From: Blastococcus sp. TF02A-30
GTDB taxonomy: Bacteria; Actinomycetota; Actinomycetes; Mycobacteriales; Geodermatophilaceae
Length of the DNA: 64,000 nt
Assembly (NCBI RefSeq): GCF_003319185.1
Contig: NZ_QOHJ01000008.1
Span: 124,001 to 188,000, forward strand
Direction: 5' to 3'
The notes under the pieces are model-generated. The model saw only the letters and a list, made by a program, of their open reading frames with translations. It searched no databases and was not told where the DNA came from. This document shows, piece after piece, positions 6,095 through 41,800 of this stretch. Made by a program: the position numbers and the translations under genes. Position 1 is the first letter of the stretch. Every line of letters starts with the position of its first letter.

Positions 6095-8713
6095 GTGCCG
6101 CGCCGTCCGTCGAGCGAGCTCCCGCTGCCCGCGTGGGAGGAAGCACCCCCCACCGGGTCACGCCGCCGTCGGGCACTGCTCCGGCTGATCCCGGCGCTGC
6201 TGCTCGCCGGCGCCCTCACGGCCGGGTTCCTGCTGCCGTGGATCGGCGGCGCGGCCCGCGGCGTCGCCCTCGCCTCCGACGTGCTGAGCCCGGCCTCCGC
6301 CGACCTGCTGCACCGCACCCCGGCGGGCAACACCCGCGTCCTCGCCTCCGACGGTTCGCTGATCACCGAGTTCTACCGCCGCAACCGCACCGTGGTGCCC
6401 GGCGAGGCGATCGCCCCGGTGATGAAGGACGCCGTGGTGGCGATCGAGGACGCCCGCTTCTTCGAGCACTCCGGCGTCGACGGCCAGGGCCTCGGGCGGG
6501 CGCTGCTCAAGAACGTCCTCGCCGGGGAGGTGGTGCAGGGCGGCTCGACCCTCACCCAGCAGCTGGTGAAGCAGATCCGGCTGCAGGCGGCCGGGACACC
6601 GGGCGAACGCGCGGCGGCGACGGAGGAGACCGTCGGGCGCAAGGTCCGGGAGGCGCAGCTCGCGCTGGGCATGGAGCAGGAGTACGGCAAGGACGAGATC
6701 CTCACCCGCTACCTCAACCGCGTGTACTTCGGCGCCGGCGCCTACGGGGTGCACGCCGCGGCGCACGCGTACTTCGGCGTGACGCCCGACGCGCTCACCG
6801 TGGCCCAGGCCGCCACGCTCGCCGGGCTCGTGCAGAGCCCCTCCAGCTACGACCCGTTCGTCTCGCCGGAGGCGGCGACCGAGCGCCGCGACGTGGTCAT
6901 CGGGCGGATGCTCGACCTCGGCACGATCACCCCGCGCGAGGCCGCCGAGGCGCGCGCCGAGCCGGTCGTCCTCACGCCGGGGACGCCGAGCCCCCGCGGG
7001 TGCGTCGACGCCCGCATCGGCGGCTTCTTCTGCGACTACCTCGTCGAGCACCTCACCGGCACGCTCGGGCTGACCCAGGACCAGCTGGAGACGGGCGGGC
7101 TGACCATCCGCACGACGCTCTCACCGCCGCTGCAGCGGTCCGGGGACGCCGCGGTCACCGCCGCGCTGGCACTCGAGGACCCCCGCGCCGGCATCTTCAC
7201 CGCCGTGGAGCCCGGCACGGGGCGGGTGCTGGCGATGTCGGTGAACCGCCGCTACGGGGTGGACGCCGCCGATCCGACGCAGACCTCGGTCAACCTGGCC
7301 ACCGCCGCCGGGCAGGGGGCCGGGTCCACGTACAAGGTGTTCACCGCGGTCTCCGCGCTCGAGCGGGGCTTCGGGCTCGAGCACCGGATCACGACGTCCG
7401 ATCCGTACGTCTCCTCGGTGTACCGGGACGGGGACGGCGCCTACGACGTCCGCAACGCCGGCCGGTACCCGCGGACGCTGGACATGGAGGAAGCCCTCTA
7501 CCGGTCGTCGAACACCTACTTCCTCGCGCTCGAGGACCAGCTGGGCTCCGTCGCGGGCCCCGTGGACGCCGCCCTCCGGATGGGGCTGTCCTCCCTCGCG
7601 CCGGTGGCGGAGGAGGTCATCGCGGAGAACCGGGGCTCGTTCACCTTCGGCGCGGAGGCGACCAGCCCGCTCGCCCTGGCCGTCGCCTACTCGACCCTGG
7701 CCGCGAGCGGGACCGCGTGCGAGCCCACCCCGGTCGACGCGGTCCTGGACCGCGACGGCGAGCCGCTCCTGGGCGCCGACGGGGAGCCGGTGGTGCCGGC
7801 CGACCGCTGCACGCCGGAGGCGATCCCGGCCGGTGTCGCGGACACGATCACCCAGGCGCTGCGCAAGGACGTGGAGCCCGGCCACCCGGGGCAGACCGGT
7901 CGGCGGGCGTACGTGCCCGGCTACCAGATCGCCGGCAAGACGGGCACGACGCAGGACAACTACTCGATCGCCTTCGCGGGCTACACGCCCGGGATCGCGG
8001 CCTCGGTCATGGTCTACAACCCGGTGCGCAACCAGGACGTCGGTGGCTTCGGTGGCGGCACGGCGGCCACCATCTGGCGCGAGGCGGTGGCGCCGGTGCT
8101 GACCCAGCGCGCGCCGGTCCCGTTCCCGCCGGCGGACCCGGAGCACGTGACGGGGCAGTACCGCACGGTCCCGGGTGGCTGCGCCGGGGGGCCGGCGGAG
8201 AGCTGCCTCGCCCTGCTGGCCGGCTCGGGTCTGGCAGCGACGGCCGTGCCGGTCGACAGCGCGCGGCCGGCGGGACAGGTCGTCGGGGTGCAGCCCGGTG
8301 CCGGGACGACGGTGCGGATCACGACCGACACGGTGACCGTCCTGGTCAGCAACGGTGCCCGGTACGTGCCCCCGGCGCCGCCGCCGGAACCCGCGCCCAC
8401 GCCGGAGCCGGAACCCGCGCCCACGCCGGAACCCGAACCCACGCCGACACCGGAACCCGCGCCCACGCCGGAACCCGAGCCCACGCCGACACCGGAACCC
8501 GCGCCCACGCCGGAACCCGAGCCCACGCCGACACCGGAACCCGCGCCGGTCCCGACGCCGACACCGGAACCCGCGCCGACACCGGCACCGACGCCTGAGC
8601 CGGCACCGGAACCCGAGCCGGCGCCGGAACCCACGCTCGCGCCGACGCCGACGCCGGAACCCACGCCGGAGCCGGAGCCCACGCCGACGAGCAGCCCTGG
8701 GGCGAGTGGGTGA
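6095..8713 (+). CDS. Class A penicillin-binding protein (GT51 glycosyltransferase + transpeptidase)
   Basis: Bifunctional peptidoglycan synthase, 872 residues from GTG 6095. One N-terminal membrane anchor ([20 protein letters not shown]) is followed by a GT51 domain with [12 protein letters not shown] (catalytic Glu) and GGSTLTQQ, then a transpeptidase domain with STYK (Ser411, Lys414), SSN (471-473) and KTG (615-617). A PASTA-like module ([12 protein letters not shown]...[12 protein letters not shown]) comes next, then a long Pro/Glu/Thr tail. An ATG at 5981 would add 38 residues, but that stretch has A/T-rich third positions unlike the rest and no ribosome-binding site, whereas GAGAGG lies six bases before 6095. 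It polymerises glycan strands and cross-links stem peptides at the outer face of the membrane. The tail probably spans the wall. Confidence 0.92.
8411..8536 (+). repeat. Three tandem copies of a 42-nt coding repeat in the PBP tail
   Basis: Copies at 8411-8452, 8453-8494 and 8495-8536 are nearly identical and each encodes [14 protein letters not shown]. Shorter, less regular EPAP/TPEP units continue on both sides to about 8690. The array is in frame, so copy-number change alters only tail length. Confidence 0.9.
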
Positions 8714-8761
8714 GTGTGGGGGCGGGAGGCCGGTCCTGACGGTCTGGCCGCGTTGGTCGGT

Positions 8762-18765: not shown

Positions 18766-19802
18766 CAGCGGACCCCCTCGAACCCGCTGCCGGTACCGGG
18801 AGCTCGACCGCGCGCGTTCAGCTTTCTGCACCGAGAGCTGACGACGGCGGCCGGCCGGCGGCGGTCGTCCTCCGGCCGCTGGGGCTGGGGGACCTGCTCA
18901 CCGGGGTGCCGGCGATCCGGGCGGTCCGCGCCGCCGTGCCCGAGCACCGGCTGGTCCTCGCCACCACCGAGCAGCTGCGCCCGCTGGCCGAGCTGATCGA
19001 CGCCGTCGACGAGGTGCTGCCGGCCCGCGAGCTCGAGCCCCTGGACTGGAACGGGCCGCCGCCGGAGCTCGCCGTCGACCTGCACGGCAAGGGTCCGGCG
19101 TCGCACGTGGTGGTGGCCGACCTGCACCCGGCACGGCTGCTGACCTTCGACAGCCCCGGGTACCCCGGCCCGACCTGGTACCCCGACGAGCACGAGGTGC
19201 GCCGCTGGTGCCGGCTGGTCTCCGAGGGGCTCGGGGTCGAGGCCGATCCGGACGCGCTCGACCTCGCCGTGCCGCCGGTGCCGCCGCCCGTGCGCGACGT
19301 CGCGGTCGTCCACCCCGGTGCCGCCTACCCCGGGCGCCGCTGGCCACCGGCCCGGTTCGCCGCCGTCGCCCGGCACCTCGCCGACTCGGGGCACGACGTG
19401 CGGATCACCGGAGGGCCGGCCGAGGTGGAGCTGGCGCGGGAGGTCGCGGCCGCGGCGGGCCTGCCGGACGACGCGGTGCTGGCCGGCCGGACGACGTCGC
19501 TGGGGCTGGCCGCCGTGGTGGCCGCCGCCCGCGTGGTGGTGTGCGGCGACACCGGCGTCGCGCACCTGGCGACGGCCTACCGCCGTCCCTCCGTGGTGCT
19601 GTTCGGCCCGGTGTCACCCGCGCTGTGGGGACCGCCGCCGCGCGAGCAGCACGTCGTCCTCTGGCACGGCGACGGCACCGGCGATCCCTGGGGCGCCGAG
19701 CTCGACCCGGCGCTGGCCCGCATCACCGTCGACGAGGTCGTCACCGCCCTCGACGCCGTCCTGGCCCCGTCCGGAGGCTCGCCCCGAGCGTGCGAGGGGT
19801 GA
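18762..19802 (+). CDS. Second family 9 (heptosyltransferase-like) glycosyltransferase
   Basis: A 346-residue GT9 protein. A variable N terminus is followed by VVLRPLGLGDLLTGVPAIRAV, the GT9 opening loop, then LAVDLHGKGPASH, VVHPGAAYPGRRWPPARFAA, VRITGGPAEVELAREVA and VVVCGDTGVAHLATAYRRPSV (GDTGxAHLA loop). ATGA overlap with hldE shows it belongs to the operon. It would add a heptose to the glycan at the cytoplasmic face. The last codons and the stop at 19800-19802 lie inside a 54-nt palindromic element that belongs, in orientation, to the opposing gene, so the C-terminal GGSPRACEG is encoded by that element. This suggests the element was inserted into or extended the 3' end. Confidence 0.87.
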   Translation: MTADPLEPAAGTGSSTARVQLSAPRADDGGRPAAVVLRPLGLGDLLTGVPAIRAVRAAVPEHRLVLATTEQLRPLAELIDAVDEVLPARELEPLDWNGPPPELAVDLHGKGPASHVVVADLHPARLLTFDSPGYPGPTWYPDEHEVRRWCRLVSEGLGVEADPDALDLAVPPVPPPVRDVAVVHPGAAYPGRRWPPARFAAVARHLADSGHDVRITGGPAEVELAREVAAAAGLPDDAVLAGRTTSLGLAAVVAAARVVVCGDTGVAHLATAYRRPSVVLFGPVSPALWGPPPREQHVVLWHGDGTGDPWGAELDPALARITVDEVVTALDAVLAPSGGSPRACEG

Positions 19803-19816
19803 GAGGGACGGGGTCC
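19763..19816 (-). repeat. 54-nt dispersed 3'-end hairpin element, copy A
   Basis: Read on the minus strand it begins GGACCCCGTCC and ends GGACGGGGCC, with an inner pair CTCACCCC / GGGGCGAG around a loop TCGCACGCTC. It starts four bases after the stop codon of the VWA gene (19821). Copies B and C are at 22714-22767 and 40413-40466, equal in length with no gaps. Outer stem positions 4-11 pair with 45-52. It likely folds as a 3'-UTR hairpin/terminator. Confidence 0.85.
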
Positions 19817-19820
19817 TTCA

Positions 19821-21440
19821 TCAGCCGCGCTGGCGGAGGGCGTCGAAGAGCACGTCCTGCAGGTCGTTCTCGTCGACCGCGGAGTAGGCGGCGCCGCCGG
19901 TCGCGTCGGCGATGCGCTCCAGCGCGCTCAGGTCGGCCTCCGGGCCGAGGGCGATGCCGATGACCTTCACCGGGCGGTTGGCGTCCACCTCGGCGGCCAG
20001 CGTCTGGACCAGCGTCTCCAGGCCGATGCTGTCGGTGTCCTCGTCCTGCCCGTCGGTGATGATCACGACGCTGCTCACCGAGGTCGGGTCGAAGTCGGCC
20101 CGGGCCGCGCGGACGGCGGCCAGCGTGGTGTCGTAGAGGCCCGTCCCGCCGGGGGAGAGGCGCCCGGGGATCGTGTCCAGCTGGTCGGTGAGGACCTCGC
20201 GCTGGGTGGACCCGTTGACGTCGGCCTCGAGCGCCCGGGTGGGCACCAGCTGGGTCCAGTCCTGGGTGCTCTCCAGCTCGCGGGCGAAGACCCACAGCCC
20301 GATGGCGGAGCGGCCGGGGAACAGCGAGAGCGCGCTCTTCGCGGCGTCCCGGGCCAGGGTGGCGCGGGTGCCGCCACCCACGGCGGCCTCCATCGAGGTG
20401 CTCACGTCGAACACGGCCAGCAGCCGCGAGGGCTTGGCCAGGCTGGAGAGCCGGCCGAGCAGCCCCTGCACCTCCGCGGGATCGAGCTCCAGCGCCTGAG
20501 GCGCCTCCTGACGCGTGCCGGTGCGGTCGCCGGCCAGGGCGGGGGCGGACCCGTCGCCGGTGCGGAAGCCGGCCTCGCGCGCGGCCTCCTGCGCCGCCTC
20601 CGACGTGAGCGCCGCGACGACGGCGTCGACCGCCTCGGTCTCCTCGGGCGAGCCGACCCGCAGCACCGGGTAGTCCAGCGACGGCGAGCCCTCCGACGGG
20701 TAGACGGCGATGAGCAGCGGGTCCGGGTTGCCCTCGTTCCCCGCGTAGACCTCCTGCTCGCTCACCGGCACGAGGGCGGCGTCCTCCGCGCCGTCGGCCG
20801 CCTCGGCCAGGGCGTCGGCGGCGGCCGGTGCGCGGGAGGCCGAGAGCACGGCCTCGACGACGGCTTTGTCGGCGTCCTCGCCGCCGCCCAGGGAGCTGCG
20901 CACGGCGGCGAGGGCGGACAGGCCCTCCGCGCTCGCCGCGAGGTCGGGGACGGCGAGCGGGCGGTCGGTGGTGAGCGCCTGGCCCCACGTGGGGGGTGCG
21001 TTCGCCCAGCCGAGGGCGTCGACCGCGGCGCGCGAGGTGGCCAGCACGACGGGGGAGGAGGCCACCGCGCCGTCGGCGGAGAGCTCGGCACCCTCCGCGC
21101 GGGCCGACCACAGCGAGGAGTCGGGGATCCACACGTCGGGCAGCGCCTCGGCGTCCAGGGCGCCCAGGTCGCCCACGGTCTGCAGCGGCTCCTGGGCGGT
21201 CACCTGGGCCCGGACGCACTGCTCGGCCAGGGCCTCGTCGGACAGCAGCTCGCCGGCCAGCTCACCCAGCTCGGGCGCCACCGTGACGTCGACGACGGGC
21301 GGCGAGTCGCAGTCCTCGCCCCCGGCGGTGACCCACCAGGCGACCCCGCCGACGAGGAGCAGGAGGACCAGACCTGCGGCGATCAGGAGGACGGGCGGCG
21401 CCGGACGTCGGGTTGCGGTGGGATCGGCGTGGCGGCCCAT
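19821..21440 (-). CDS. Membrane-anchored solute-binding / von Willebrand factor A hybrid protein
   Basis: A 539-residue protein. The N terminus has one membrane helix (PVLLIAAGLVLLLLVGGVAWWV) and the rest would be outside the cell. Residues 45-310 resemble the extracellular solute-binding fold SBP_bac_11 (PVVDVTVAPELGELAGELL, ALPDVWIPDSSLW, VVLATSRAAVDALGW, LLIAVYPSEGSPSLDYPVLR). Residues 345-535 form a VWA domain with a complete MIDAS motif: DVSTS, the Thr of GGTGLYD, and TDGQDEDT. Such hybrids occur in actinobacteria and may bind a surface ligand or wall polymer in a metal-dependent way, but no substrate is known. It is convergent with the heptose operon and downstream of a UDP-xylose-synthase-like gene on the same strand (120-base gap). 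Confidence 0.82.
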   Translation of the reverse strand: MGRHADPTATRRPAPPVLLIAAGLVLLLLVGGVAWWVTAGGEDCDSPPVVDVTVAPELGELAGELLSDEALAEQCVRAQVTAQEPLQTVGDLGALDAEALPDVWIPDSSLWSARAEGAELSADGAVASSPVVLATSRAAVDALGWANAPPTWGQALTTDRPLAVPDLAASAEGLSALAAVRSSLGGGEDADKAVVEAVLSASRAPAAADALAEAADGAEDAALVPVSEQEVYAGNEGNPDPLLIAVYPSEGSPSLDYPVLRVGSPEETEAVDAVVAALTSEAAQEAAREAGFRTGDGSAPALAGDRTGTRQEAPQALELDPAEVQGLLGRLSSLAKPSRLLAVFDVSTSMEAAVGGGTRATLARDAAKSALSLFPGRSAIGLWVFARELESTQDWTQLVPTRALEADVNGSTQREVLTDQLDTIPGRLSPGGTGLYDTTLAAVRAARADFDPTSVSSVVIITDGQDEDTDSIGLETLVQTLAAEVDANRPVKVIGIALGPEADLSALERIADATGGAAYSAVDENDLQDVLFDALRQRG

Positions 21441-21560
21441 GCTCGCTCTCTGTCATCGACTCGGTGGCAGTCGCGGCTCCCCCGAGACCGCGGCCCCCCA
21501 GAGTAGTGGGGCAGCCGCCACGGGGTCCAACGCTCCGCGTCACCTGCCGATGACGAAGGG

Positions 21561-22547
21561 TTAGCCGGCGCGCACCTCGAGGGCGCCGACCCGCTCCCGG
21601 AACCAGGCGACCGTGCGCCGCAGGCCCTCCTCGGAGGTCACCTCCGGCTGCCAGCCCAGCAGCTCCTGCGCCTTCGTGGTGTCGGGCCGGCGGACCTTGG
21701 GGTCGTCGACGGGGAGGTCGATGAAGTCGACGGGGGAGTCGGACCCCGTGAGCTCCACGATCCAGCGGGCCAGGGCGAGCATCGACAGCTCGTCGGGGTT
21801 GCCGATGTTCACCGGGCCCGCGTGCGGCGAGAACGCCATCGCCAGGATGCCGCGGACGGTGTCGTCGACGTAGCAGATGGAACGGGTCTGCGAGCCGTCG
21901 CCGGCGACGGTCAGCGGCCGGCCGGACAGCGCCTGGCCGACGAACGCGGGAATCGCGCGGCCGTCGTCGGCGCGCATGCGCGGCCCGTAGGTGTTGAAGA
22001 TCCGGACGATGCCGGTGTCGGTGCCCTTCGACGTCCGGTAGGCGGTGGTCATCGCCTCGCTGAACCGCTTGGCCTCGTCGTAGACGCCGCGCGGGCCCAC
22101 CGGGTTGACGTTGCCCCAGTACTCCTCGGTCTGCGGGTGCTGCAGCGGGTCGCCGTAGACCTCCGAGGTGGAGGCGAGGACGTAGCGGGCGCCCTTCTCG
22201 TGCGCCAGGCCCAGCGTGTGGAGGGTGCCGAGGCTGCCGACCTTGAGCGTCTCGATCGGCATCTTGAGGTAGTCGAGCGGGCTGGCCGGCGAGGCGAAGT
22301 GCAGGACGAGGTCGACCGGGCCGGGGACGTGCACGTAGTCGGTGACGTCGCAGCGCACCAGCCGGAACCGGGGGTGCTCCAGCAGGTGGACGACGTTCTC
22401 CGGGGAGCCGGTGAGGAAGTTGTCGAGCGCCACCACCTCGACGCCGCGGTCGAGCAGCTGCTCGCAGAGGTGCGAGCCGAGGAACCCGGCCCCTCCGGTG
22501 ACCACCGCCCGGCGGATCGTGCGGACCTCGCGCACCGGCTGTGCCAT
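21561..22547 (-). CDS. UDP-glucuronate decarboxylase (UDP-xylose synthase)-like SDR enzyme
   Basis: A 328-residue extended short-chain dehydrogenase. It shows the NAD-binding loop GGAGFLGSH, catalytic STSEVYGDP with YDEAKR (Tyr-x3-Lys), and the diagnostic [21 protein letters not shown] and [14 protein letters not shown] segments of UXS enzymes, which decarboxylate UDP-glucuronate to UDP-xylose. The start at ATG 22547 is chosen because GAGGAG lies just upstream; a longer frame to 22583 has no ribosome-binding site. The product would feed xylose into a surface glycan, possibly the one built by the heptose operon across the convergent junction. A related role as a UDP-sugar epimerase is less likely. 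It is not an obvious HldD, since the ADP-heptose epimerase motifs are absent. Confidence 0.82.
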
Positions 22548-22660
22548 CGCTGCTCCTCGTGCTTCCCGGGCGCCCCTGCGCACCCCTCCGTGCCGCCCCT
22601 ACCCGGGCCGGCCGAGCGCACACACTTCGGCGGCGAAGTGTTCCCGCGGAACACGCGGAC

Positions 22661-22692
22661 GGGCCGCCGGATCCTGGTGGATCCGACGGCCC
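22661..22692. terminator. Strong hairpin downstream of the liv operon
   Basis: Arms GGGCCGCCGGATCC and GGATCCGACGGCCC pair with one mismatch around a TGGT loop. It lies between livK (ends 22770, minus) and the UXS gene start (22547). Immediately beyond it, 22622-22641 holds another perfect stem, ACACTTCG / CGAAGTGT with a GCGG loop. With the 54-nt element at 22714 this makes three hairpins in a row. Confidence 0.7.
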
Positions 22693-22713
22693 GCCGTGGT
22701 GACGTGCTGGAAC

Positions 22714-22767
22714 GGCCTCGTCCAGAGGCTCACCCCGAGCTTGCGAGGGATGAGTGGGACGAGGTCC
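22714..22767 (-). repeat. 54-nt dispersed 3'-end hairpin element, copy B
   Basis: On the minus strand it begins GGACCTCGTCC and ends GGACGAGGCC around the loop TCGCAAGCTC. It starts two bases after the livK stop. Compared with copy A, position 6 is T instead of C and its partner 50 is A instead of G, a compensated change. Confidence 0.85.
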
Positions 22768-22769
22768 TG

Positions 22770-24119
22770 CTATTCGTTGAAGGCGGGCTCGTCCGGGATG
22801 CCGTTCTCCGGCGGAGCCGTCTCCTCGCCGTCCCACTCCTCGATCTCGGCGTCGCCGATGTCGGTGATCATCACGGGACGGACCTCCTCGGCGGTGGTCC
22901 CGACGAGGCGGCTGATCGACATGCCACCGGTGCCCATGTGGCTGTCCTCGCTGTACCGGAAGGGTGCCAGGAGCGGGCCCTCCCACTCGGCGCCGACCGT
23001 CTCGATGGCCTCGACGAGGTCGTCGCGGGTCGGGTTCTGGCCGGCGGCCTGCAGCGCCTGGATGGTCGTGTAGGCCATCGACATGCCGTACAGCTTGTAG
23101 TTGGTCAGGTCGCTGCCGTCGCCGTTGGACTCCCAGATCTCCTGGAACTTCTGCACCCACGGGTCGTCGGGGGCGTCGACGGTCGGCAGGTAGTCGGTGG
23201 TCAGCATGCCGTCGAGCACGCTGGCGTCACCCACGGCGCCCTGCGAGAAGTTGGCCAGCAGCCGGCCGACCAGCTCGGTGTCCGACCCGACGTTCGAGTA
23301 GAACCACTGCGGGTCGTAGCCCAGCTGCAGCGCGGTCAGCTGCGACAGGGCGGTGTAGCTCGGCACGTTGAAGCCGACGACGAAGTCCGCCCCCGAGGCC
23401 TGGAGCTCGGCGATCTGCGGGCCGACGTTGGTGTTGCCCGGCGTGTAGCGCACCGCGGCCACGATCTGGTCGTCGATGTACTCGCGGACGCCGGCCTCGC
23501 CGTCCTCGCCGAAGTCGTCGTCCTGGAGGAAGAGACCGACCTTGGCATCCGGGAACTCCTCGGCGATGTACTGGCCGATGATCTTGCCCTCGGACATGTA
23601 GTCGGTCTGCCAGCCGAAGGTGTACGGGTTGGTCTCCGGGTCGTCGCCCCAGAGCAGCGAGCCCGACGACACGAACAGGTCCGGCACGCCCTCGCTGTTG
23701 AGGAAGTCCAGGACGGCGCTGTGGGTGGGGGTGCCCAGGCCGCCGACGATCGCGAAGACCTCGTCCTCGAGCACCAGCTGGTTGACGACCTGGCTGGTGT
23801 TGGTCGGGTTGTAGGCGTCGTCGCGGTAGATGTAGTCGATCTGCCGGTCGTACACGCCGCCGTTCTCGTTGACGTAGTCGAAGTAGGCGTCGACGCCGAG
23901 CGGGATCTCGCTGTAGCCCGGCGCGGCCACGCCGGTCAGCGGGTAGTGGGCACCGAGCTTGATCGAGTCCTCGGTGATGCCGATGTCGGAGGCCTCGTTG
24001 GCGCCACCGCCACCGCCGCCACCACCGCTGTCGTCGTCACCGCCGCCGCAGGCGGCGACGGAGGACACGACGGTGGCGGCCGCGAAGAGCGACACGAGAC
24101 GTCGGGAGGATCTGGACAA
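22770..24119 (-). CDS. livK: Branched-chain amino-acid type ABC transporter substrate-binding lipoprotein
   Basis: A 449-residue type I periplasmic-binding-protein lipoprotein. TTG 24119 is preferred because AGGAG lies five bases upstream and it places the signal peptide LVSLFAAATVVSSVAAC directly at the N terminus, with the lipobox Cys followed by a Gly/Asp/Ser linker. The mature protein shows LGAHYPLTGVAAPGYSEIPLGVDAYF, INENGG-like VNENGGVYDRQI, IVGGLGTPTHSAVLDFLN and TNVGPQIAELQASGADFVV, the Peripla_BP_6 pattern. It captures branched-chain amino acids or a related polar solute outside the membrane for the LivHM-LivGF complex. It is the last gene of the operon, 89 bases after livM. The ligand cannot be deduced. 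Confidence 0.88.
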   Translation of the reverse strand: MSRSSRRLVSLFAAATVVSSVAACGGGDDDSGGGGGGGGANEASDIGITEDSIKLGAHYPLTGVAAPGYSEIPLGVDAYFDYVNENGGVYDRQIDYIYRDDAYNPTNTSQVVNQLVLEDEVFAIVGGLGTPTHSAVLDFLNSEGVPDLFVSSGSLLWGDDPETNPYTFGWQTDYMSEGKIIGQYIAEEFPDAKVGLFLQDDDFGEDGEAGVREYIDDQIVAAVRYTPGNTNVGPQIAELQASGADFVVGFNVPSYTALSQLTALQLGYDPQWFYSNVGSDTELVGRLLANFSQGAVGDASVLDGMLTTDYLPTVDAPDDPWVQKFQEIWESNGDGSDLTNYKLYGMSMAYTTIQALQAAGQNPTRDDLVEAIETVGAEWEGPLLAPFRYSEDSHMGTGGMSISRLVGTTAEEVRPVMITDIGDAEIEEWDGEETAPPENGIPDEPAFNE

Positions 24120-34277: not shown

Positions 34278-34309
34278 GAAGGCGGCGCCCCGTGCGGGGC
34301 GCCGCCTTC
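34278..34309. terminator. Terminator hairpin between tRNA-Ser and the kinase gene
   Basis: Perfect 14-bp stem GAAGGCGGCGCCCC / GGGGCGCCGCCTTC with a GTGC loop. It lies seven bases after the tRNA and eight before the convergent kinase stop, so it can serve both directions. Confidence 0.9.
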
Positions 34310-36546: not shown

Positions 36547-36582
36547 CGGGCCCGCCTCGTCCGCACGGACGAGGCGGGCCCG
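36547..36582 (+). terminator. Terminator of tRNA-Ser(GGA)
   Basis: Perfect 16-bp stem CGGGCCCGCCTCGTCC / GGACGAGGCGGGCCCG with a GCAC loop, six bases after the tRNA. The following bases are TCCCGTTCC, so there is only a weak T tail. Confidence 0.9.
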
Positions 36583-36756: not shown

Positions 36757-36852
36757 GGGTCCAGACCCCTCGTGCGGCGTCACCCTGTGAACCTCCCCAG
36801 GGCCGGAAGGCAGCAAGGATAAGCGGGCTCTGGCGGGTGCGCGGGGGGTCCT
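36757..36852 (+). ncRNA. ffs: Signal recognition particle RNA (4.5S type)
   Basis: The conserved Ffh-binding hairpin is visible: CCAGGGCCGGAAGGCAGCAA with the GGAA tetraloop and the AGCA internal loop, then GCGGGCTCTGG on the return strand. Flanking arms AGACCCCTCGTGC and GCGCGGGGGGTC close a small bacterial SRP RNA of about 95 nt, followed by TTTT. TACAGT at 36751-36756 is a fitting -10, so the true 5' end may be near 36763. The RNA guides Ffh to signal sequences of nascent membrane proteins. Confidence 0.92.
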
Positions 36853-36911
36853 TTTCTTCCCCTCGTCACGGTCCTGCCCCGTTCGGTGCGGGCGGCACGA
36901 GGCCGGTCGAG

Positions 36912-39300: not shown

Positions 39301-39361
39301 CGTCCAGCCGGGCCACGACGCGGCCACACGTCCTCCCGCGGGGCTCAGCCCCCTCTGGACG
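39301..39361 (+). terminator. Stem-loop region between dnaX and ybaB
   Basis: An outer pair CGTCCAG / CTGGACG encloses the hairpin GGGGCT-C-AGCCCC (39340-39352). The 3' half (GGGGCTCAGCC...CTCTGGACGA) resembles the 3' half of the 54-nt element, so it may be a diverged copy. It could attenuate dnaX read-through. Confidence 0.4.
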
Positions 39362-39426: not shown

Positions 39427-39771
39427 ATGTTCCCCGGAGGCCAGCCCGACCTGTCGCAGCTCATGAAGCAGGCGCAGCAGATGCAGCAGCAGCTCGTCGC
39501 CGCTCAGGAGCAGCTGGCCGAGGCCGAGGTCACCGGCACCGCCGGCGGCGGGCTGGTGTCGGCGACCATGACCGGCAGCGGCGACCTCACCGCGCTCACC
39601 ATCGCGCCGGCCGCCGTCGACCCCGACGACCTCGAGACCCTGCAGGACCTCGTGGTCGCCGCCGTCCGCGATGCGAAGCGCGCCGTCGACGAGCTGGCCG
39701 CGCAGACCATGGGCCCCCTCGCGGGCGGCCTGGGCGGCCCCGGCGGCGGCCTGGGCCTGCCCGGATTCTGA
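39427..39771 (+). CDS. ybaB: YbaB/EbfC-family nucleoid-associated protein
   Basis: A 114-residue protein starting [23 protein letters not shown], the long dimerising helix of this family, followed by the three-stranded sheet ([20 protein letters not shown]) and a second helix ([22 protein letters not shown]). The Gly/Pro/Leu-rich C terminus is usual for actinobacteria. It binds DNA as a dimer and coats the nucleoid. TACCCT at 39415-39420 ends six bases before the ATG and there is no ribosome-binding site, so the transcript is probably leaderless. It is always found with dnaX and recR. Confidence 0.93.
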
Positions 39772-39808
39772 CCGCACCGCTCCCCGAACCAATACCAGAA
39801 GGAACACC

Positions 39809-40408
39809 GTGTACGAGGGTGCCGTCCAGGACCTCATCGACGAGCTCGGCCGGCTGCCCGGCGTCGGGCCCAAGAGCGCGCAGCGCATCGCCTTCCACCT
39901 GCTGGCCGCCGAGTCGGCCGACGTGAGCCGGCTGGTCGCCGCGCTCACCCGCGTCCAGAAGGAGGTCCGCTTCTGCGTGACCTGCTACAACGTCGCCGAG
40001 GGCGAGCAGTGCAAGATCTGCCGCGACCCGCGCCGCTCCGACGACGTGCTGTGCGTGGTGGAGGAGCCCAAGGACGTCGTCGCCATCGAGCGCACCCGTG
40101 AGTTCCGCGGCCGGTACCACGTGCTCGGCGGCGCGATCAGCCCGATCGACGGCGTGGGTCCCGACGACCTGCGGGTCAAGGAGCTCATGACCCGGCTGAT
40201 GAACGGCCAGGTCAAGGAGCTGATCATCGCCACCGACCCGAACCTCGAGGGCGAGGCGACCGCCGCCTACCTGGCCCGCCTGGTCGGCCCCATGGGGCTC
40301 GCGGTCAGCCGGCTGGCCAGCGGCCTGCCCGTGGGCGGCGACCTCGAGTACGCCGACGAGGTCACGCTCGGCCGGGCGTTCGAGGGCCGCCGCCGCATCG
40401 ACGCCTGA
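39809..40408 (+). CDS. recR: Recombination protein RecR
   Basis: A 199-residue protein. An N-terminal helix-hairpin-helix ([24 protein letters not shown]) is followed by the zinc finger [16 protein letters not shown] and a TOPRIM domain ([40 protein letters not shown], with its acidic residues). It acts with RecF/RecO to load RecA at gaps. GTG 39809 has AGAAGG upstream. A copy of the 54-nt hairpin element begins five bases after the stop. Confidence 0.95.
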
Positions 40409-40412
40409 GGAG

Positions 40413-40466
40413 GGACCCCGGTCCGCCCACCCTTCGCACGCTCGGGGCGGGCCCCTGACCGGGGCC
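40413..40466 (+). repeat. 54-nt dispersed 3'-end hairpin element, copy C
   Basis: It begins GGACCCCGGTCC and ends GACCGGGGCC around the loop TCGCACGCTC. Relative to copies A and B, positions 9, 10 and 15 are changed together with their partners 47, 46 and 38, so the stems stay paired. It starts five bases after recR. Confidence 0.85.
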
Positions 40467-40708: not shown

Positions 40709-41800
40709 GTGATCGAACTGAACGACGTCCGCAAGGTCTTCCCCGCCCGCCGCGGGGCGGCCGAGGTGACCGCTGTCGACGGCGTCACCCTCTCGGTGGC
40801 CGACGGCGAGTTCGCCGGCGTCGTGGGCCCGAGCGGCTCGGGCAAGAGCACGCTCGCCCGGATGGTGAACCTGTTGGAGCGGCCGACGTCGGGCAGCGTC
40901 GTCGTCGACGGCCAGGTGCTCACCGACCTCGACGACGACGGCGTCCGGCGGGCCCGGCGCACCGTGGGCATGGTCTTCCAGCACTTCAACCTGCTGGACT
41001 CGCGCACCGCCGCGGGCAACGTCGAGCACCCGCTCGAGCTGGCCGGCGTCGGCAAGGCGGAGCGGCGCCGCCGCGTCGCCGAGCTGCTCGACCTGGTCGG
41101 CCTCGGCGACCGGCACGCCTCCCGGCCCGCGCAGCTCTCCGGCGGGCAGAAGCAGCGGGTCGCGGTCGCCCGCGCGCTGGCCGCGCGGCCCAAGGTGCTG
41201 CTCTGCGACGAGGCCACCAGCGCGCTCGACCCGGCCAGCACCGCCGGCGTGCTCGACCTGCTGCGCCAGGTGCGCGCCGAGCTCGGCCTCACCGTCCTGC
41301 TGATCACCCACGAGATGGCCGTCGTCCGCGCCGTGTGCGACAGCGCCGTCCTGCTCGACTCCGGCCGGGTCGTCGACGGCGGGCCGCTGACCGAGGTGCT
41401 GTCCCGCCCGCACTCGCCGCTGGCCGCCCAGCTGCTGCCCGCCCCGGTGGTCGCCGGCGCCACCGGCGACCTCGTCCGTGTCACCGTCACCGAGGCCGCG
41501 CCCGAGGGCCGGGTGCTGCGCACCCTGGCCGGTGAGCTCGGGCTGGACGTCGAGGTCGTCGGCGGCTCGGTCGAGACGGTCGCCGGCCGGCGGTTCGGCC
41601 GGCTGCTGCTGCAGGTGACCGGCGACGACGGCCGGCTCGACGCCGCGCTGCAGCGGCTGCGCGACGGCGGCTCGCTGGTCGAGCGCGCGGTCCCGGGTGA
41701 CGAACCCGAGCCGATCGACGAGCACGACGAACCCGAGACGGGGGAACCGGACCGGCCGGCGGTCCGGAGCCTCCTCGACGCGCCGGAGGTGCAGCGGTGA
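40709..41800 (+). CDS. metN: Methionine ABC transporter ATPase
   Basis: A 363-residue ATPase: Walker A GPSGSGKST, signature LSGGQKQR, Walker B VLLCDEATSALDP, and switch His in LLITHEMAVV. The C-terminal 100 residues (VRVTVTEAAPEGRVLRTLAGELGLDVEVVGG...) form the NIL/ACT-like domain that lets cytoplasmic methionine inhibit MetNI (transinhibition). GTG 40709 overlaps no other gene; the stop overlaps metI by GTGA. It drives uptake of D/L-methionine and analogues. Confidence 0.94.
   Translation: MIELNDVRKVFPARRGAAEVTAVDGVTLSVADGEFAGVVGPSGSGKSTLARMVNLLERPTSGSVVVDGQVLTDLDDDGVRRARRTVGMVFQHFNLLDSRTAAGNVEHPLELAGVGKAERRRRVAELLDLVGLGDRHASRPAQLSGGQKQRVAVARALAARPKVLLCDEATSALDPASTAGVLDLLRQVRAELGLTVLLITHEMAVVRAVCDSAVLLDSGRVVDGGPLTEVLSRPHSPLAAQLLPAPVVAGATGDLVRVTVTEAAPEGRVLRTLAGELGLDVEVVGGSVETVAGRRFGRLLLQVTGDDGRLDAALQRLRDGGSLVERAVPGDEPEPIDEHDEPETGEPDRPAVRSLLDAPEVQR

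Follow-up and report, generated by a model that had tools for sequence, protein, structure and literature searches.

Why does one and the same hairpin stand directly behind the stop codons of unrelated genes, and what might it do there? The question is raised by a 64,000-nt stretch of DNA from Blastococcus sp. TF02A-30 (here called the window; positions are counted from its first letter), in which an earlier reading of the letters, the original prediction, had noticed a 54-nt hairpin in three copies behind a gene with a VWA domain, a livK-like gene and recR. The observation of a repeated, stop-adjacent hairpin is real. We regard it as probable (roughly 0.6) that the copies belong to a dispersed hairpin element specific to the Geodermatophilaceae, a family of bacteria from soil and stone, and that this element resembles repetitive extragenic palindromic (REP) elements and acts as an mRNA 3'-end hairpin without a U-tract.

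For the searches two covariance models were built. Model R1 is based on the seven copies with the 14-mer TCGCAMGCTCGGGG, which occurs 7 times in the 4.13 Mb genome of this strain (G000) and not once in the reversed control; model R2 is based on 19 copies of a 56-nt form. If R1 is applied unfiltered to the window, the three copies score 74.5-81.5 bits and the best remaining match 17.8, and because of this gap three copies were counted there. They have the same length of 54 nt and align without gaps, as had been claimed, and they start on the sense strand within the predicted 2-5 bases of a stop codon (spacers of 4, 2 and 4 nt). The four paired changes (6/50, 9/47, 10/46, 15/38) are real on both sides, the loop TCGCA(A/C)GCTC is found in all three copies, and Pfam agrees that the host genes are unrelated (SBP_bac_11 with VWA, Peripla_BP_6, RecR). 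A common fold of all three reaches -28.1 to -32 kcal/mol (z -1.9 to -3.4). The weaker relative suspected behind dnaX (39301-39361) was rejected, as it is missing from the 79 window matches listed at E≤10. A terminator scan of positions 19000-23500 found none.

Many further copies exist in the same genome. With the best 150 first-pass candidates scored per model, 79 (R1) and 84 (R2) matches were obtained at E≤1. When the retrieved stretches were rescanned with R1, 78 rows passed E≤0.01, and these correspond to 74 distinct copies. One locus (L008:4743-5049, C30:24742-25048 of G000) is a tandem array of four near-identical copies with a period of about 84 nt, each preceded by GTAGTYGAA.

The placement of the copies relative to genes and strands is not random, as the original prediction had proposed. 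Genes were called with a codon-bias gene finder made for this analysis, whose calls are unchecked against an annotation. In the genome of the strain itself 54 of the 74 copies start 0-10 nt past a same-strand stop, 27 of these 54 at exactly 4 nt. A second set was taken from named genomes with an exact pattern that yielded at least 115 stretches, 80 of which are listed and form the set of named loci; there 88 of 115 copies start in the same range, 55 of them at 4 nt. Intergenic space alone would lead to 4.2% (own genome) and 4.1% (named loci). The distance between stop and stem is mostly 0-5 nt with a mode of 4. Because the pattern fixed GAAGG, the loop and other letters, the column invariance of the named set and a part of its stop spacing are built in; the own-genome R1 set (54/74) is free of that flank choice. 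At tandem junctions, sense copies outnumber antisense copies by 41:6 in the own genome and by 67:6 in the named loci. Convergent junctions hold 21/74 and 33/108 copies, divergent junctions 6/74 and 2/108. A promoter-like TANNNT motif behind the elements was left unused, since its count (13/60 versus a shuffled mean of 7.3) lies within the shuffle maximum of 15; at junctions without the element it occurs in 27/145 (shuffled mean 10.6).

Across genomes 216 copies were collected (208 distinct), of which 200 could be parsed well; the other 16 were excluded because their parse scored low. The copies lead to the consensus stop-[0..5 nt, often NGAA]-GG-A-[8-9 bp]-YC-CYC-A-[4 bp]-TCGCANGCTC-[4 bp]-C-GRG-[5 nt]-[8-9 bp]-CC. 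Seen from the base, a lower stem of 8-9 bp is followed by an asymmetric internal loop (2x5), by 3 bp, by an A.C mismatch and by another 4 bp, which carry the 10-nt loop TCGCANGCTC. Among the parsed copies the 10-nt loop is present in 187, the 5' linker CC in 160 and the A.C mismatch in 149. In the own-genome set the copies have the loop, the flank and the tail in common beyond the pairing. This tail, GTTCCAGCACGTCACC, is an optional 3' addition: about a third of the copies (63/198) match it at 11 or more of 16 positions, 115/198 at fewer than 8, and 20/198 lie in between. A U-tract behind the stem is absent: among 199 copies none has five or more T, and 28 have three or more, within the 8 nt that follow, and even if the best 8-nt window within 16 nt is taken, five or more T occur in only 2/199. 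A search of the window against Rfam 15 at the gathering threshold gave no match to the element, and in five copy-bearing loci at E≤1 the sole match was mir-1286 (L008:1982-2054), which lies off the copies.

Two refinements of this structure were given up. An outer stem TGACG:CGTCA between the stop triplet and the tail, whose letters may be complementary, was dropped, as position -4 versus +11 showed no clear paired change and pairs in 30% of the 63 tail-bearing copies; GAA:TTC beside the stem is found in 42 of these 63, also without clear covariation. A base triple at 15/38/42 (T/A/T in 15 and C/G/C in 174 of 200 copies) was rejected, because 13 of the 15 T/A/T copies come from the own genome and shared descent explains the pattern equally well. 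Behind recR in G101, G049 and G064 (L281, L284, L298) we observed full copies followed by 3' halves beginning with the loop (GCTCG...GGCC-GTTCCA...TCACC), which gives the impression that copying resumes or breaks off at this point.

In 19 gapless own-genome copies 89.7% of the cells pair and 11 of 21 pairs change on both sides. The covariation score of 0.337 compares to at most 0.114 for slid structures and was reached by none of 500 shuffles. For a tree-based test we used the 111 distinct sequences (20 from the own genome) among 119 gapless 56-nt copies, built a tree and simulated the substitutions of each column 60 times, with our own R-scape-like script and not with R-scape. Significant covariation at E<0.05, which had been named as a check, was found for 7 of 1378 column pairs, and all seven are pairs of the proposed stems (6-52, 8-50, 9-49, 10-48, 11-47, 20-35, 21-34). 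Eight stem pairs are invariant, which for the named copies is partly built in by the search pattern. These substitutions show that the pairing is under selection, and the pairing molecule would be RNA or single-stranded DNA. The earlier claim of a selected structure is supported as far as selection for pairing goes; covariation alone does not tell the folding of the two molecules apart. None of the outcomes named as refuting the original prediction (no further copies, random placement, no excess of paired substitutions) occurred.

The element is confined to one family in the genomes sampled, save three outside genomes. With the best 50 or so candidates scored per genome, matches at E≤0.001 were obtained in 101 of the 112 genomes of Geodermatophilaceae, which belong to 9 of its 12 genera. 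The sample of the order contains only 3 matching genomes outside the family, with 1-2 matches each, and in the sample of the phylum (stricter filters, 14 candidates per genome) none of 395 genomes outside the family matches at E≤1e-5. The 80 listed stretches of the pattern scan are titled Geodermatophilus, Modestobacter, Blastococcus or Geodermatophilaceae, save one 'UNVERIFIED_ORG: Bacillus sp. AZ43'. Within the genus the copy number is uneven, from 0 (G001), 2 (G016) and 3 (G007) up to at least 50. A description of the element is not among the literature matches listed, loop sequences included, which cover open-access texts only, so that this absence is no proof. In term searches, the main text of PMC12306157 (RepRanger) returned no 'geodermatophil', 'blastococcus' or 'modestobacter', and that of PMC3733652 (tagged REPs) no 'geodermatophil' or 'actinobacteria'.

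At orthologous positions the element is present, absent or exchanged for other sequence. A recR gene was matched in 104 genomes; in 90 of these its 3' end was read, and flanks were compared for the longest 60 of 385 pairs. By R2 and by reading, an element lies within about 140 nt of the recR stop in 26 of the 90 genomes, mostly 1-4 nt behind it. It is reversed in G031, in one of two copies in G018 and in the nested one in G026, and in some other genomes remnants below model scoring are found. The downstream flanks of G084 and G086 (329 nt) have 97% identity, and the former carries a different palindrome where the latter carries the element. A palindrome also occurs in G087 (94% to G086) and the element in G092 (93% to G084), and the slot of G095 (80% to G084) measures only 8-16 nt. 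G033 possesses the element, while G030 (89%) and G034 (85%) have 27 and 37 nt without it, and a remnant in G085 corresponds to an intact element in G103 (97% over 338 nt). In the recR loci compared, the C-terminus of RecR is nearly unchanged with versus without the element. In one recR locus of G026 (L289) a copy is split, its 5' and 3' parts flanking a reversed copy that looks as though it had entered the top of the first or been joined to it by recombination, and L309 is a triple array of the element. Another common post-stop sequence of about 80 nt, CGACAG..CGGGAGCATCGCAGCGAGG..., which is not this hairpin, was noticed 3' of recR in G023, G024, G029 and G028 (L227, L233, L240, L257).

The two other slots of the window give a similar view. 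For the VWA slot of copy 1, 19 of 23 slots were read. The element is identical at 54/54 positions in G000 (L343) and G008 (L348), while the flanking proteins are 70% identical and most of the collected copies differ from each other; G021 has a degenerate copy, G001 and G016 have a GGACTTYC palindrome, and palindrome-like sequences were seen by eye in G006, G010, G003, G018, G009, G020, G022 and G005. At the livK-like slot of copy 2, with the C-terminus used to recognise the genes, the element is present in seven genomes of the genus, the own included; the stem is near-identical in G002 and G011 and differs in the others.

The palindrome of G001 and G016 belongs to a second repeat family. Sites of the form GACTTYC-N6-GRAAGTC number 59 in G001, 53 in G016, 38 in G006 and 18 in G012, with 0 in the control and 0-9 in the other 19 genomes of the genus; the two genomes richest in it have 0 and 2 matches of the main element. 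By a hand count of 17 groups (two of them apparently one site), 11 lie within 40 nt of a gene 3' end and 3 inside called genes. Its longer form, GGACTTYC-N6-GRAAGTCC (L316-L332), often occurs in pairs about 20-35 nt apart. Repeats of the TTCCGCGGAA type have 8 occurrences in the 140 kb sampled from G003 and 6 in the 120 kb from G010; the window lacks them, and so do the samples of G009, G020, G022 and G007. A third high-copy palindrome, GCGGAGTSCCAG..CTGGSACTCCGC, was rejected, as the exact pattern has 1-3 sites each in only 5 of 108 genomes, and GGCATAG..CTATGCC is a low-copy form in the samples, where 200 kb per genome contain 1 site in G009 and 2 in G020. A de novo clustering of inverted repeats in the samples gave no 8-mer common to more than two intergenic repeats. 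A strict replacement, in which one hairpin family excludes another, was abandoned, for only G001 and G016 fit and G006 has both.

We tentatively suggest from this that the position behind the stop codon might be a niche for competing, lineage-specific palindrome families, which would amplify, supply mRNA 3' ends and displace each other. Examples would be the main element, GGACTTYC-N6-GRAAGTCC in G001 and G016, and the TTCCGCGGAA type in G003 and G010. Terminators would then be mobile and interchangeable, with copying by another route than the one known for REP-associated tyrosine transposases (RAYTs). We hold this wider view with less than even confidence.

The three copies of the window and their neighbouring genes are listed in Table 1. 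The open reading frame with the Glyco_transf_9 domain ends at 19802(+), so that copy 1 overlaps the end of a convergent gene; this copy is without the conserved 3' tail.

Table 1. Copies of the element in the window and the genes next to them.
Feature	Position	Strand	Remarks
Copy 1, 54-nt hairpin	19763..19816	(-)	4 nt past TGA of the SBP/VWA gene; R1 81.5 bits
Copy 2, 54-nt hairpin	22714..22767	(-)	2 nt past TAG of the livK-like gene; R1 77.0 bits
Copy 3, 54-nt hairpin	40413..40466	(+)	4 nt past TGA of recR; R1 74.5 bits
3' tail GTTCCAGCACGTCACC of copy 2	22698..22713	(-)	
Gene upstream of copy 1, SBP_bac_11 + VWA domain protein	19821..21440	(-)	Pfam
Convergent gene Glyco_transf_9, stop inside copy 1	18906..19802	(+)	Pfam; start as chosen by the gene finder
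Gene upstream of copy 2, Peripla_BP_6 (livK-like)	22770..24095	(-)	Pfam
Gene after copy 2, same strand, NAD-dependent epimerase	21561..22547	(-)	Pfam
Gene upstream of copy 3, recR	39671..40408	(+)	Pfam
Gene after copy 3, same strand, ABC_tran + NIL (metN-like)	40709..41800	(+)	Pfam

Elsewhere in the window, long perfect hairpins without a T-tract stand directly 3' of two tRNA genes (34278-34309, 36547-36582), the end of the signal recognition particle (SRP) RNA (36761-36856) runs into CCTTTTCTTCC, and a degenerate tandem repeat with steps of 12-24 nt lies within predicted coding sequence (8306-8725).

How could these observations be explained? In the reading we favour, the element would spread by copying, like REP elements do, and the copies retained would be those whose transcription puts the hairpin at the extreme 3' end of an mRNA. 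In this location it would most likely act in one of two forms: as a U-less 'I-shaped' terminator it could stop transcription by itself, or, if Rho ends transcription at a point further along, it could be a barrier to 3'-5' exonucleases. A role at the 3' end is suggested by the placement of copies at gene ends and between convergent genes, by the strand bias, by the conservation of the pairing and by the exchange with other hairpins, and the dispersal, the arrays, the nested copy and the swings in copy number argue for REP-like copying. The earlier idea that the element has spread into the 3' ends of genes unrelated to each other finds support. A classical terminator does not fit, because T-rich tails are absent. 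Passages of PMC8269248 describe Streptomyces 3' ends at stable U-poor hairpins, known by Term-seq, and discuss the U-poor structured 3' ends of Streptomyces clavuligerus as a barrier after Rho termination and trimming, and according to parts of PMC12288462 U-less terminators are claimed for mycobacteria. Hairpins near stops are common in themselves, with about 60% of predicted termination hairpins lying within 20 nt of the stop in the account given in PMC8355165; the unusual part is a shared structured sequence at a near-fixed distance.

Several points weigh against this reading. By its title, Czyz 2014, a reference of PMC12288462, reportedly holds that the mycobacterial polymerase needs a U-tract, and such tails are missing from all 199 copies. 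The downstream spacing counts in favour of the reading, as the next start lies less than 25 nt behind or overlaps in 10 of 94 tandem junctions with the element compared to 197 of 413 without it, but most of this contrast comes from gene overlaps (141 of the 197 close junctions), which could not host an insertion; if overlaps are excluded, 9/93 compare to 56/272. In the own genome 20 of 74 copies have no predicted same-strand stop in the 10 nt before them. Of these, 14 still have a stop triplet in the preceding 10 nt (7.1% for random window positions), so that the triplet may belong to the element or its target and not reflect selection at gene ends; genes missed by the gene finder are another possible cause. 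With respect to the covariation, two of five measures were reached by shuffles (the number of pairs changed on both sides by 12/500, the number of pair types by 114/500), and the variable stem pairs 7-51, 19-36 and 22-33 are not significant in the tree-based test. Finally, G007, G020 and G022 have few matches of the element (3, 9 and 16) and none of the second palindrome, and since they are poor in both counted families the slot need not hold either.

Some of these points would be expected if the element were purely selfish, a mobile hairpin of the REP kind or like a miniature inverted-repeat transposable element (MITE), which we hold to be rather unlikely. Its pairs would covary because a transposase or other enzyme recognises folded single-stranded DNA and inserts it at sites containing TGA or CTAG, and the position behind stops would reflect this target choice together with the removal of harmful insertions. 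The stop triplets just mentioned are in agreement with such a target, and so is CTAG, which is found 2-7 nt before the element in 6 of the same 20 copies (L035, L052, L055, L071, L074, L080; 0.15% for random window positions) and as a rare tetranucleotide is possibly the insertion target. The strong variation of match numbers among congeners, the tandem and triple arrays and the reversed nested copy also suit a selfish element, as does a parallel drawn from passages of PMC3733652, where the tag of GTAG REPs often supplies a TAG stop. A neutral passenger, however, would not be expected to show strand biases of 41:6 and 67:6 or to share its slot with unrelated palindromes, and the C-terminus of RecR is nearly the same with and without it. 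RAYT-type mobilisation was also rejected for the own genome, in which no Y1 (IS200/IS605-like) transposase (PF01797) was matched, the search being limited to G000 and its control positive in 5 of 14 genomes.

The narrow distance to the stop could instead point to a translational brake, in which a hairpin 0-5 nt away stalls the terminating ribosome and lowers expression or triggers cleavage of the mRNA. Such a function is proposed in passages of PMC12306157 for those REPs of E. coli (446 of 4072) that lie no more than 15 nt from a stop, and the observed spacing with its mode of 4 nt is compatible with it. A brake by itself predicts neither the scarcity of close downstream starts nor other palindromes in the slot, some of them further from the stop, and we consider it improbable. 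It is most improbable that ordinary GC-rich 3' hairpins arose many times and the model merely gathered look-alikes. Inverted repeats are common in these GC-rich genomes, and PMC8355165 in part describes hairpins within 20 nt of stops as common in bacteria at large, but the loop TCGCANGCTC, the flank and the tail are shared in the own-genome set beyond what pairing asks for, none of the 395 genomes sampled outside the family matches at E≤1e-5, and the control of the 14-mer gave 0 compared to 7.

If the element indeed acts as an mRNA 3'-end hairpin, many mRNA ends of a whole bacterial family would be made by a repeated hairpin that can be copied, lacks a U-tract and stands 0-5 nt past the stop. 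This would bear on how GC-rich actinobacteria end transcripts without U-tracts. It would also bear on whether transcription runs ahead of translation in these bacteria, as a stem at this short distance would otherwise be melted by the ribosome standing at the stop. Dozens of sequenced species in which hairpins are present, missing or exchanged at fixed slots would represent natural experiments.

Compared to known systems, the element shares with REPs that it is a short, dispersed, imperfect palindrome in tens of copies per genome, mostly 3' of genes, with heterogeneous stems, dimers or arrays, and an uneven copy number among related species. It differs from the GTAG and CGTC REPs by its length of 54-57 nt, the long internal loop, the 10-nt loop and the anchoring 0-5 nt past stops. 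A consistent tag is missing as well: before the stem mostly NGAA is found, which in the named set is in part a product of the search pattern, GTAG precedes only some copies, for example those of the array, and CGTC stands 9 nt into the optional tail. The element has the GC-rich stem-loop of a classical Rho-independent terminator and lacks the U-tract after the stem. The stop-proximal terminators of B. subtilis (Johnson 2020) reportedly carry U-tracts and are not a repeat family; the element is without a U-tract, is a repeat family, and its part in termination is a matter of inference. What both have in common, as far as PMC7858274 describes Johnson 2020, are the few nucleotides between stop codon and stem, which are read there as a sign of runaway transcription; transcription outrunning translation would follow here too, if the element acts co-transcriptionally. 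GTAG and CGTC REPs are reported in other phyla in the passages of PMC3733652. The element also resembles the U-less 'I-shaped' terminators and U-poor actinobacterial 3' ends (passages of PMC12288462 and PMC8269248), which are GC-rich hairpins near the stop without a U-tract, and most copies indeed have a hairpin within 50 nt past the stop and no U-tract. Those passages describe no shared sequence, whereas the element is a sequence family that recurs behind different genes and in different species, with its loop and its internal loop nearly fixed.

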